DNA of 64,000 nt, from NCBI GenBank assembly GCA_021730945.1, contig JAKFYH010000009.1, positions 22,501-86,500 on the forward strand, given 5' to 3'. Positions 56,515 to 59,551 of the stretch are shown one piece after another. Numbering within the stretch: the stretch's first letter is position 1; every line of letters begins with the position of its first letter. Below the pieces are notes generated by a model. That model did no database searches. It saw only the letters and a program-made list of their open reading frames with translations, and was not told the origin of the DNA. The position numbers and the translations under genes were made by a program. Source of the stretch: Acidobacteriota bacterium. GTDB lineage: Bacteria; Acidobacteriota; Vicinamibacteria; Vicinamibacterales; UBA2999.

Positions 56515-58038
56515 ATGCAGTCCCTTCTCACCAAACTCCAAATCGAATCCCTCAACCCCGGCGCCTGCACTGGTCCCGATGGCTGGATCGCCGAGCCCGA
56601 CGGTCACAAGCTGACGTCGTTCAATCCCACCACTGGCGACCCCATTGCCGCGGTCATGCTGTGCAGCACCGCCGCCTACGACCGCGTCGCGGCGGCGGCG
56701 ACCGAGGCCTTTCGTGCCTGGCGCGAGGTGCCGGCGCCCAAGCGCGGAGAGGTCGTCCGCGACCTCGGCGAGGCGTTGCGGGAGTTGAAGGAGCCGCTGG
56801 GCGACCTGGTCTCGCTCGAGATGGGCAAGATTCGCGCGGAAGGCCACGGCGAAGTGCAGGAGATGATCGACATCTGCGAGTTCGCCACCGGCCTGTCGCG
56901 GCAGCTCTACGGCCTGACCATTGCCTCCGAGCGTCCCGGCCATCGCATGATGGAGCAGTGGCATCCGCTGGGGCCGGTCGGCGTGATTTCCGCGTTCAAT
57001 TTTCCGGTGGCGGTGTGGTCGTGGAATGCGGCCATCGCGGCGGTGTGCGGCGACACGGTGATCTGGAAACCAGCCGAGCCCACGCCCTTGACGGCGGTTG
57101 CCGTGCAGCACATCGCCAACCGCGTGATGGCCGATCATGGACTCACCGGCGTCTTCACGCTGGCGGCGGGCTCGGGCCGCACCGTGGGCGAGGCCATGCT
57201 GCACGATGCGCGCCTCCCGCTCATTTCATTCACCGGGTCGACCGCGATTGGGCGCCATGTGGCCGGGACGGTGGCCGGCCGCTTTGGCCGCACCATCCTC
57301 GAGCTGGGTGGCAACAACGCGATCGTGGTGGCTGAAGACGCGAACCTCGAGATGGCGGTGCGCGCGATCCTGTTCGGCGCGGTGGGCACGGCGGGCCAAC
57401 GCTGCACCTCCACGCGGCGAATCATTGCCCACAAGGCGGTCCTGCCGGCACTGGCTGAGCGGCTGCTCAAGGCATACACGCAAGTGCGCATCGGCGATCC
57501 GCTCGCCTCCGGCACCTTGATGGGACCGCTGGTCACCACCAAGGCCCTGACCGACATGGAGGCGGCCATGGCGCAGGCGGTCGCCGAGGGTGGCACGGTG
57601 CTTTGTGGTGGCAAGCGGCGTCCGGACCTCGGACCGCAGTTTGTCGAACCGGCCATCATCCGCATGCCCGCGCAATCGGCGGTCGTTCAGCAGGAGACGT
57701 TCGCGCCGATTCTGTACCTGCTCGAGTACGAACGGTTCGAGGACGCACTGGCCATGCACAACGGGGTGCCACAGGGCCTCTCCAGTGCGGTATTTACCGA
57801 GAGCATGCGCCGGGCGGAGGAGTTCATGTCACCGCGCGGCTCGGACTGCGGCATTGCCAACGTCAACATTGGCACGTCGGGGGCCGAGATCGGCGGTGCG
57901 TTCGGTGGTGAGAAAGAGACCGGCGGCGGCCGCGAGTCGGGGTCCGATGCCTGGAAGGGCTACATGCGCCGGCAGACCAACACCGTGAACTGGTCAACGG
58001 CATTGCCGCTGGCCCAGGGCATCACCTTCGGAGACTGA
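56515..58038 (+). CDS. Aldehyde dehydrogenase, ALDH7 (aminoadipate semialdehyde) type
   Basis: 507 residues. ALDH fold: PVGVISAFNFPVAVWSWN, WKPAEPTPLTA, SFTGSTAIGRHVA, LELGGNNAIVV (general base Glu), GTAGQRCTSTRR (nucleophilic Cys) and the ALDH7-like NIGTSGAEIGGAFGGEKETGGGRESG. Probably oxidises L-aminoadipate-6-semialdehyde/piperideine-6-carboxylate. Could also feed the aldehyde pathway of the BMC, but it lies 9 kb away. Confidence 0.9.
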   Translation: MQSLLTKLQIESLNPGACTGPDGWIAEPDGHKLTSFNPTTGDPIAAVMLCSTAAYDRVAAAATEAFRAWREVPAPKRGEVVRDLGEALRELKEPLGDLVSLEMGKIRAEGHGEVQEMIDICEFATGLSRQLYGLTIASERPGHRMMEQWHPLGPVGVISAFNFPVAVWSWNAAIAAVCGDTVIWKPAEPTPLTAVAVQHIANRVMADHGLTGVFTLAAGSGRTVGEAMLHDARLPLISFTGSTAIGRHVAGTVAGRFGRTILELGGNNAIVVAEDANLEMAVRAILFGAVGTAGQRCTSTRRIIAHKAVLPALAERLLKAYTQVRIGDPLASGTLMGPLVTTKALTDMEAAMAQAVAEGGTVLCGGKRRPDLGPQFVEPAIIRMPAQSAVVQQETFAPILYLLEYERFEDALAMHNGVPQGLSSAVFTESMRRAEEFMSPRGSDCGIANVNIGTSGAEIGGAFGGEKETGGGRESGSDAWKGYMRRQTNTVNWSTALPLAQGITFGD

Positions 58039-58075: not shown

Positions 58076-58774
58076 TCACCTAGCCGGTCTGAGGCGGCTC
58101 ATCGATACACGCTCGCGCACCCGCGGGCGCTGGCCATTGGCGGACAGTGAGCGTGCCCTCGCGATCGTGTCGTCTCCAATCGCGGTGTCGCGCCAGTTCG
58201 CGAGGATGAACTCGCGCAGTTCGTCAATCGAATCGCCGTAGGTGTGGAAGTCGAACTCGACCGTGTCCTCGCGGAGGAAGATGCCCTCGCCGAAGGCAAT
58301 CACCAGGGCGTCCTCTGCCGCCTGGTGGCGCGCCGATCCGGCGGGCGAGTCCACGAAACCGGCGCGTGCCTCACCCACGAATATGGCCGCCGGCTCCGGT
58401 GTCGGATGGATATCGACAACCAGGCCGGTCGGCCTCACGATCCGGTGTGCGTGGCGCAGGGCATGGACCATGCCCTCAGTGGGGATTCATCAAAGCGACC
58501 AGGAAAAGATCGCCACGTCCACGCTGCGTGGCGGCAGGTCGAGCAGGTCGATGCCGACCGCCCGCGCATCCACTTCCGGCATCGCCGCGCGCAGGGCGTC
58601 GATCGAGGCCGCCTTCGGATCAATCGCAACGATCGACGCGGTGCCGGCCGCGTACCGCCGGGTCAGCCGGCCGTCGCCACAGCCGATTTCAAGCACCCGC
58701 AATCCGGCGAAGGACGGCACCATGCGGGCGAGGGCGGTCACCTCGTGCTGTTCGGGATCTTCGTGGATCGCCAT
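58076..58774 (-). CDS. SAM methyltransferase interrupted by in-frame TGA TGA (candidate selenoprotein)
   Basis: A 232-codon frame read on the minus strand from ATG 58774. N-terminal half: VLEIGCGDGRLTRRYA (motif I), SIVAIDPKA (motif II) and VDVAIFSWSL. Codons 95 and 96 (58492-58487) are TGA TGA; the same frame continues as IPTEGMVHALRHAHRIVRPT, GLVVDIHPTPEPAAIF, to the TGA at 58076. The downstream part is normal methyltransferase sequence, so the two halves are one gene. Ten nt after the second TGA comes a perfect 9-bp hairpin (58476-58458) with apical GGUC, like a bacterial SECIS. Either two selenocysteines (equivalent to CC) or a pseudogene. Nine bp downstream of the SDR gene. Confidence 0.65.
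58458..58476 (-). promoter_or_regulatory. SECIS-like hairpin after tandem TGA codons
   Basis: AGGGCATGG-T-CCATGCCCT on the minus strand, a perfect 9-bp inverted repeat. It starts 10 nt after the second TGA; GGU of the apex begins 17 nt after that TGA, close to the 18 nt in E. coli fdhF, whose SECIS loop also carries GGUC. Confidence 0.5.
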
Positions 58775-58783
58775 GTTCGACCC

Positions 58784-59551
58784 CTACCTGGGCGCCATGC
58801 GCAGCGCGCCATCGAGGCGAATCACCTCGCCGTTCAGCATCTCGTTCTCGAGGATGTGGCAGACCAGCGCGCCATACTCGGCCGGGCGGCCGAGGCGCGA
58901 CGGGAACGGCACTTGCTGGCCCAGTGAGACTCGCGCCGCCTCCGGCAAGCCGGCGAGCAGTGGCGTGTCGAAGATGCCCGGAGCGATGGTGACGACGCGA
59001 ATGCCCAGCTGCGCAAACTCGCGAGCGATCGGCAGCGTCATGCCGACAATGGCGCCCTTGGAGGCGGCGTAGGCGGGCTGGCCAATCTGGCCGTCGTAGG
59101 CGGCGATCGACGCCGTGTTCACGATCACGCCACGCTCGCCGTTCCCGGCCGGCGCATTTTGTGAGATGACGGCGGCGGCCAATCGAATCACATTGAAGGT
59201 GCCGACCGCGTTGATCCGCAGCGTCTTCTCGAACAGGTCGAGCGGGTGCGGGCCGTTCCTGCCCAGCACCTTGGCCGCGGGGCCGATGCCGGCCGCATTC
59301 ACGACGCCGTGCAGCCCGCCAAACGCCGAGACGGCGAGATCGACCGCGGCCTTGACCTGTTCCTCGCTGGTTACGTCGGCTTGCGCGAAGCGGGCCGTGG
59401 CGCCCATGGCCTGTTCAGCCGCGCGGCCGGTTTCGGCGTTCACGTCGAGCAACACGGTATTGCCACCTGCGGCGACGATGGCCTCGGCGGTGGCGCGGCC
59501 CAGTCCCGAAGCGCCGCCGGTGACGATGAAGGTCTTTCCAGAAATATCCAT
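58784..59551 (-). CDS. Short-chain dehydrogenase, 3-hydroxyacyl-CoA dehydrogenase type II-like
   Basis: 255 residues. SDR motifs: TGGASGLG cofactor loop, [33 protein letters not shown] (Ser, Tyr, Lys catalytic set) and [10 protein letters not shown]. The pattern matches HSD10/type II 3-hydroxyacyl-CoA dehydrogenases. AGGGAGCAG precedes the ATG, a plausible ribosome binding site. Upstream of the methyltransferase above with 9 bp between. Confidence 0.9.

Follow-up and report, generated by a model that had tools for sequence, protein, structure and literature searches.

This work describes a bacterial methyltransferase gene that appears to encode two consecutive selenocysteine (Sec) residues. 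The gene lies in the window, the 64,000-nucleotide stretch of Acidobacteriota DNA analyzed here, where the frame of a class I SAM methyltransferase is interrupted by two adjacent TGA codons followed by a SECIS-like hairpin. From the sequence, we infer that each of the two UGAs is decoded as Sec in vivo and that a single hairpin directs both insertions, and we put the probability of this reading, in which the organism's own SelA, tRNA-Sec, and SelB carry out the decoding, at roughly 0.93. According to the proposed mechanism, the hairpin would hold SelB together with Sec-tRNA, which would deliver Sec at UGA 95 and then at UGA 96, and the product would be one class I SAM methyltransferase domain with two vicinal Sec residues, one or the other of which is Cys in some relatives. 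A double-Sec protein had been proposed in the initial annotation of this DNA, and the proposal is supported by relatives with UU, UC, and CU at the site (U for Sec, C for Cys), by covariation in the hairpin, and by the presence of SelA, SelB, and tRNA-Sec in the genome.

As the initial annotation had read it, the frame runs on the minus strand from the ATG at 58774 to the TGA at 58076-58078, and it contains no stops except the TGA at 58492-58490 and the TGA at 58489-58487 (Table 1). Read through, it encodes 232 residues, with the motif SWSL-UU-IPTEGMVHAL at residues 91 to 106. The first 94 residues alone match Pfam Methyltransf_25 at 37 bits (cut-off, 27), and the part from Met 58471 onward, scanned alone, gave no Pfam match.

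Table 1. Features of the read-through gene and its flanks (window coordinates)
Feature	Position	Strand	Evidence
Read-through gene, putative 232-residue class I SAM methyltransferase with Sec95-Sec96	58076..58774	-	Frame reading, Pfam, AlphaFold2
First in-frame TGA, residue 95	58490..58492	-	TGA in 86/94 and Cys codon in 8/94 distinct relatives
Second in-frame TGA, residue 96	58487..58489	-	TGA in 77/94 and Cys codon in 17/94 distinct relatives
SECIS-like hairpin, 8 bp with GUC triloop (core helix, 58475-58470 with 58464-58459)	58458..58476	-	RNAfold, covariation
True terminal stop, also TGA	58076..58078	-	Frame reading
Short-chain dehydrogenase gene, upstream	58784..59551	-	Pfam adh_short
Aldehyde dehydrogenase gene, other flank of the selenoprotein gene	56515-58038		

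A search of 99 related genomes, with residues 95 and 96 of the query masked as X, retrieved four other relatives with two TGAs (34 to 78% identity) amid many ordinary methyltransferases; the TGA-TGA site was read directly in three of them and in an alignment for the fourth. Among the matches listed by a profile search, the double TGA occurs in at least 14 of the 193 genomes of the window's class, its own included (the copy in G063, which ends at a contig edge before the motif, was left out of the counts). In the sample of the window's phylum, 6 of 396 genomes matched at an E value of 1e-20, and five of these, again including its own, have two TGAs; the sixth match, G051, is TGA-free and scores only 75 bits. 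The Chloroflexota sample, which represents the phylum of a carrier labeled Anaerolineales, gave matches in 48 of 400 genomes, 47 of them with one or two TGAs. For the phylum of the Actinomycetota-labeled carrier, 7 of 396 genomes matched, and for that of the Armatimonadetes-labeled carrier, 13 of 43 did, with TGA present in all 7 and all 13. The interrupted gene and its hairpin thus recur across at least four bacterial phyla, which by label are Acidobacteriota, Chloroflexota, Armatimonadota, and Actinomycetota. G225, from the Chloroflexota sample, was rejected as a TGA-free relative, since it really holds a UU-type sequence with a frame changed before the motif: in L241 (G225:C26:112600-114600), the frame shifts just upstream of the motif and leaves TGATGA out of frame, as in a pseudogene or after a sequencing error. 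G466:C113 is a weak TGA-free match of 75 bits in which the motif pattern was not recognized.

For a comparison of the dyad itself, copies sharing the same 120 bases around the motif were merged and scores of at least 130 bits were kept; the relatives' scores leave a gap between 99 and 137 bits, and rows below 130 bits were dropped. The resulting 94 distinct members include L050, which was kept though its C terminus looks frame-shifted, and they were gathered with a family profile built from Sec members with Cys written at the site, which biases the set slightly towards such rows. The initial annotation had suggested checking residues 95 and 96 in homologues, and these are not unrelated: 69 members have TGA-TGA, 17 have TGA-Cys (TGC or TGT), and 8 have Cys-TGA. 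Cys-Cys was found in none of the 94 members, which come from samples of a few phyla, so a selenol seems to be needed for the chemistry. A quick tree of these members requires 14 or more changes of dyad state, which suggests repeated exchange of Sec and Cys at both positions; this tree has many weak forks, and when only its well-supported branches are counted, the minimum is 8 changes for UC and 3 for CU.

The weaker, TGA-free relatives are methyltransferases of other kinds that have His-His, a single Cys, or different residues at the site. Five rows just under the score gap (about 77 to 100 bits) comprise three His-His (L078, L079, and L081) and two single-Cys sequences. The initial annotation's expectation that a normal homologue would carry two Cys residues therefore held only in part: some of the nearest non-Sec relatives have one Cys, but no Cys-Cys form was found and others have His-His. 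In the best 20 BLAST pairs, the His-His enzymes are 29 to 41% identical to Sec members over 109 to 196 residues, and they keep the shape of the motif as SLHHVP or SFHHLP. The family thus appears to have Sec at the site where these loci (L078:4001-4351, L079:4001-4327, and L081:4001-4300) carry His-His, an unusual exchange partner for Sec. Separately, several genomes hold more than one copy: paralogues with differing dyads occur in G194 (L071 and L191, CU and UU), in G585 (L146 and L189, UU and CU), and in G285 (L161 and L196, UU and UC), and one contig of the Chloroflexota sample, G262:C16, carries two UC copies (L141 and L190) ∼5 kb apart.

Only one UGA might be decoded efficiently, the other acting mostly as a stop, with a truncated 94-residue product dominating and the tandem also acting as a selenium-sensing regulatory switch. 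Recoding at one UGA in E. coli is reported to be 30 to 40% efficient (PMC4513850), so a second UGA directly after the first would multiply the loss, and the UC and CU relatives indicate that one Sec can be enough. We nevertheless consider this reading improbable: UU is the commonest state (69 of 94) and is present in every phylum sampled, even though the Actinomycetota-labeled sample has it in only one of seven members and is mostly CU; both positions are Sec or Cys in all 94 members; and the codons downstream of the TGAs are under purifying selection. Relative to a same-genus relative (77 to 78% identical), dN/dS is 0.28 after the TGAs (132 codons) and 0.20 before them (94 codons).

Decoding of both UGAs as Sec would depend on the hairpin, which begins ten bases past the second TGA, with GGU starting 17 bases after that codon, the position given in the initial annotation. 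The hairpin had been described there as a perfect 9-bp stem; RNAfold instead folds the 22-mer into a stem of 8 bp closed by a GUC loop (−12.7 kcal/mol). This 22-mer folds better than most shuffles (z = −2.76; 3 of 200 equally good), and a 51-mer does not stand out (z = −0.49; 56 of 200 equally good). Folding energy was accordingly set aside as unconvincing on its own, and covariation was required. Limits published for bSECIS elements (PMC13188914) place the loop 16 to 37 nt from the UGA and specify a loop of 3 to 9 nt with G in the first two positions, a stem of 4 to 16 bp, and an MFE of −7.5 or lower. Measured against those values, the hairpin of the window lies within the limits for both UGAs, with 8 bp, a GUC loop, and distances of 18 and 21 nt.

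Stronger evidence comes from comparison among relatives. In a set of 75 distinct members, standard pairs fill 99.6% of the cells of the six-pair core, with compensatory changes in all six, a level reached by none of 500 shuffles; the exception among the five covariation measures is the number of further pair types, which 23 of 500 shuffles matched. Sliding the partner strand by 1 to 3 columns lowers pairing to 27 to 58% in the same 75 members. When all 94 members are considered, the six core pairs hold in 562 of 564 cells; an outer pair is formed in 77 members and the innermost one in 67. The hairpin of L040, for instance, folds at −12.3 kcal/mol with both partners replaced in three of its eight pairs. 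At the foot of the stem, the members have codons for nine different amino acids, yet the final base of this codon is G in 92 of 94. Within the hairpin, Gly is written GGC in 73 of 74 cases (versus 47% of 819 flanking Gly codons in these sequences), His is written CAT in 62 of 64 (versus 41% of 369), and Ala is written GCC or GCT in 89 of 90 (versus 46% of 1,813); this near-fixed codon choice points to selection at the RNA level. We regard the hairpin as real because dozens of distant relatives have the TGAs and the hairpin together at this position. That UC and CU forms occur naturally further suggests that the hairpin is functional at either distance (21 or 18 nt from UGA to loop). Two members with atypical apices, L155 (motif at 1789; GGC loop) and L136 (motif at 814; five-base loop on a 5-bp stem), would be useful for probing the loop needs of SelB.

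The hairpin also contains an in-frame ATG, at 58471, which raises the option of a split gene: translation would stop at UGA UGA and restart there to yield two subunits. Although 82 of 94 members have ATG at that codon, the other 12 have GTC, GTA, GCC, or ATC with the hairpin kept, the UC and CU relatives have just one stop with a Cys codon in place of the other, and the structural model forms one compact domain across the site. We therefore judge a restart to be very improbable. A pseudogene or an assembly error is more improbable still: there are two stops within an otherwise ordinary gene, and many of the relatives and carriers are draft genomes, often in hundreds of contigs, but the recurrence of identical TGAs in many genomes of several phyla makes sequencing error implausible, the frame has no other stops, and dN/dS is below 0.3 on both sides. 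An equally negligible chance attaches to a genome-wide change of TGA into a sense codon: translating TGA does leave the frame open, but the organism uses it as a normal stop, with TGA terminating 23 of the 46 window ORFs of at least 200 amino acids (a mechanical list, mostly nonoverlapping) as well as the read-through gene itself, and in relatives the TGA positions swap with Cys codons only.

The genome encodes the machinery that double-Sec decoding would need. SelB was detected at 308 bits, over its cut-off, in a 634-amino-acid frame with SelB-wing domains; SelA scored 522 bits, and tRNA-Sec, with anticodon TCA, scored 61.9 bits, so three of the components that the initial annotation had suggested looking for (selA, selB, and tRNA-Sec) are present. 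Among the 14 carriers of the class, SelB is over the cut-off in 11 and split into two frames in G151; it was not found in G007 and G154, which are MAGs of 80% and 85% completeness. Contig searches of six carriers placed SelB over the cut-off in three and below it in one and did not find it in two. Co-occurrence with SelB was rejected as proof of recoding: since 139 of the 193 genomes of the class have SelB in any case, its presence in 11 of 14 carriers, or 12 with the split G151, is consistent with recoding but not discriminating.

An AlphaFold2 model built from 27 sequences with Cys in place of Sec predicts a single domain (mean pLDDT, 97.0; pTM, 0.92) that most resembles ordinary class I methyltransferases. 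VIA-align gave a Z score of 18.2 against NodS (3ofk), with an rmsd of 2.4 over 170 residues, and many other structures lie within a few Z units. Glycines G31, G33, and G35 of the SAM motif are invariant in the 27 members. In the model, residues 94 to 96 form a short turn between a strand (residues 85 to 91) and a helix (residues 99 to 112). Where the profile alignment has SLCC, RebM (3bus) has SLHHM and TleD (5gm1) has SLCHM, and the RebM pair at the dyad is His140-His141 as counted in that alignment; mutagenesis of RebM is reported to have identified these two histidines as catalytic. The modeled dyad lies in the loop that follows strand beta-4, at the His-His position of related methyltransferases, and this place suggests that the two selenols probably lie beside the SAM methyl group. 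Our leading but tentative suggestion for the function, with the odds somewhat against it, is that the selenol pair might hold or activate a thiophilic acceptor, such as a metal(loid), an organometal, or a chalcogen compound, for methylation. Methyl transfer through Se-methyl-Sec is also possible.

The selenols may instead perform redox or peroxide chemistry, with the methyltransferase fold serving as a scaffold or as a pocket that senses SAM or SAH. Most uncharacterized prokaryotic selenoproteins are thought to be redox proteins (PMC13188914), and a vicinal pair could form a diselenide or a selenylsulfide. The retention of the SAM-motif glycines and the alignment of the pair with SLHHM of the methyltransferase RebM speak against such a role, which we consider unlikely but the main rival to methylation.

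The genomic neighborhood was surveyed for the window and for the family as a whole. In the window, only 9 bases separate the stop of the short-chain dehydrogenase gene from the ATG of the methyltransferase gene on the same strand, and this gene is possibly an operon partner in the window's lineage only. Reading from the letters, a similar dehydrogenase-like frame lies upstream in G007 and L228 as well, and many other relatives have different neighbors. Clustering of 682 flanking frames around the 94 members, 37 of whose loci have less than 4 kb of flank, gave no shared partner gene, and the shared neighbors in these flanks gave no hint of a substrate. The largest clusters touch only 13, 10, 8, and 8 of the 94 members and, as read from the letters, correspond to uracil phosphoribosyltransferase, a zinc alcohol dehydrogenase, a DUF1801-type protein, and a protein kinase.

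In comparisons with known families, the window protein was over no NCBIfam cut-off among the matches listed (best 25 of 28). Its best profile is CpaM (corrinoid protein-associated methyltransferase, NF043040), which matches all 27 aligned members and gives the window protein 44.8 bits, below the cut-off of 180. The context differs as well, with no corrinoid protein among the five neighboring window genes scanned by Pfam. CpaM also gave the best E value (2.2e-21) when 26 relatives were compared with NCBIfam (best 25 of 66 families), and judging from the best E values among those same 25, it is unlikely that any relative passes a curated cut-off. MduS (methyltransferase domain-containing selenoprotein, NF045649) likewise combines a methyltransferase domain with two Sec residues and is a distant relative, matching 23 of the 27 aligned members with a best E value of 1.8e-11. 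Its model has 338 positions and a cut-off of 380 bits, whereas the window protein has 232 residues and scores far below, at 24.2 bits. The motif given for MduS in Table 1 of PMC13188914, which cites Haft and Tolstoy 2025 as the original paper, is CxxU, in contrast to the adjacent UU of the window protein; CxxU is absent there, the residues three before U95 and U96 being Trp92 and Ser93.

Sec-containing ArsM families (ArsM UxxG; ArsM/AhpD, NF041537; ArsM/DUF2284, NF041536; and UXPK-star, NF047649) are also Sec methyltransferases, and their profile similarity to the window protein is weak. It scores below the ArsM-type cut-offs (12.7 versus 510 bits for NF041537; 13.6 versus 460 bits for NF047649), and NF041536 is absent from its best 25 of 28 NCBIfam matches. 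The Sec-ArsM motifs given in PMC13188914 are UxxG and CxxU, neither of which occurs in the window protein, whose UUIPTEG lacks UxxG. Class I methyltransferases with His-His (RebM, 3bus; L078, L079, and L081) share the motif shape S-[LF]-X-X-[VLM]-P, but XX is His-His (CAC CAC or CAC CAT in L078, L079, and L081) rather than Sec-Sec.

Consecutive Sec residues are found in the algal protein PDI_e (GUGUU), a eukaryotic protein disulfide isomerase. Eukaryotic SECIS elements sit in the 3' UTR (PMC8659212), unlike the window hairpin, which follows the codons immediately and is part of a bacterial reading frame. The inventory of 119 prokaryotic selenoprotein families in a 2026 review (PMC13188914, Table 1) gives CU and UxxU motifs but no UU motif, with the proviso that some of its two-Sec rows give one motif or none. 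No bacterial protein with consecutive Sec was found in the literature searched, a body that did not extend to Haft and Tolstoy 2025, and algal PDI_e was the sole consecutive-Sec case in it.

We think it likely that this family, unlisted in the 119-family inventory and spread over at least four phyla, uses one SECIS hairpin for two consecutive Sec residues, carries a vicinal diselenol in place of His-His, and performs chemistry requiring a selenol, for example, methylation of metal(loid)s or chalcogens or a reaction with a Se-methyl-selenocysteine intermediate. Such genes are likely to be overlooked because standard translation ends at residue 94 and no NCBIfam model fitting the window protein was seen. 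A tandem UGA would be a hard setting for decoding, as SelB would have to make two deliveries a single codon step apart, with unwinding of the hairpin imminent. Relatives with UC, CU, and UU and a hairpin at the same place amount to a natural spacing experiment on SECIS function. In all, this is a methyltransferase family that is never selenium-free in the 94 members and that appears to place Sec where its kin have His-His, and its chemistry would be worth finding.
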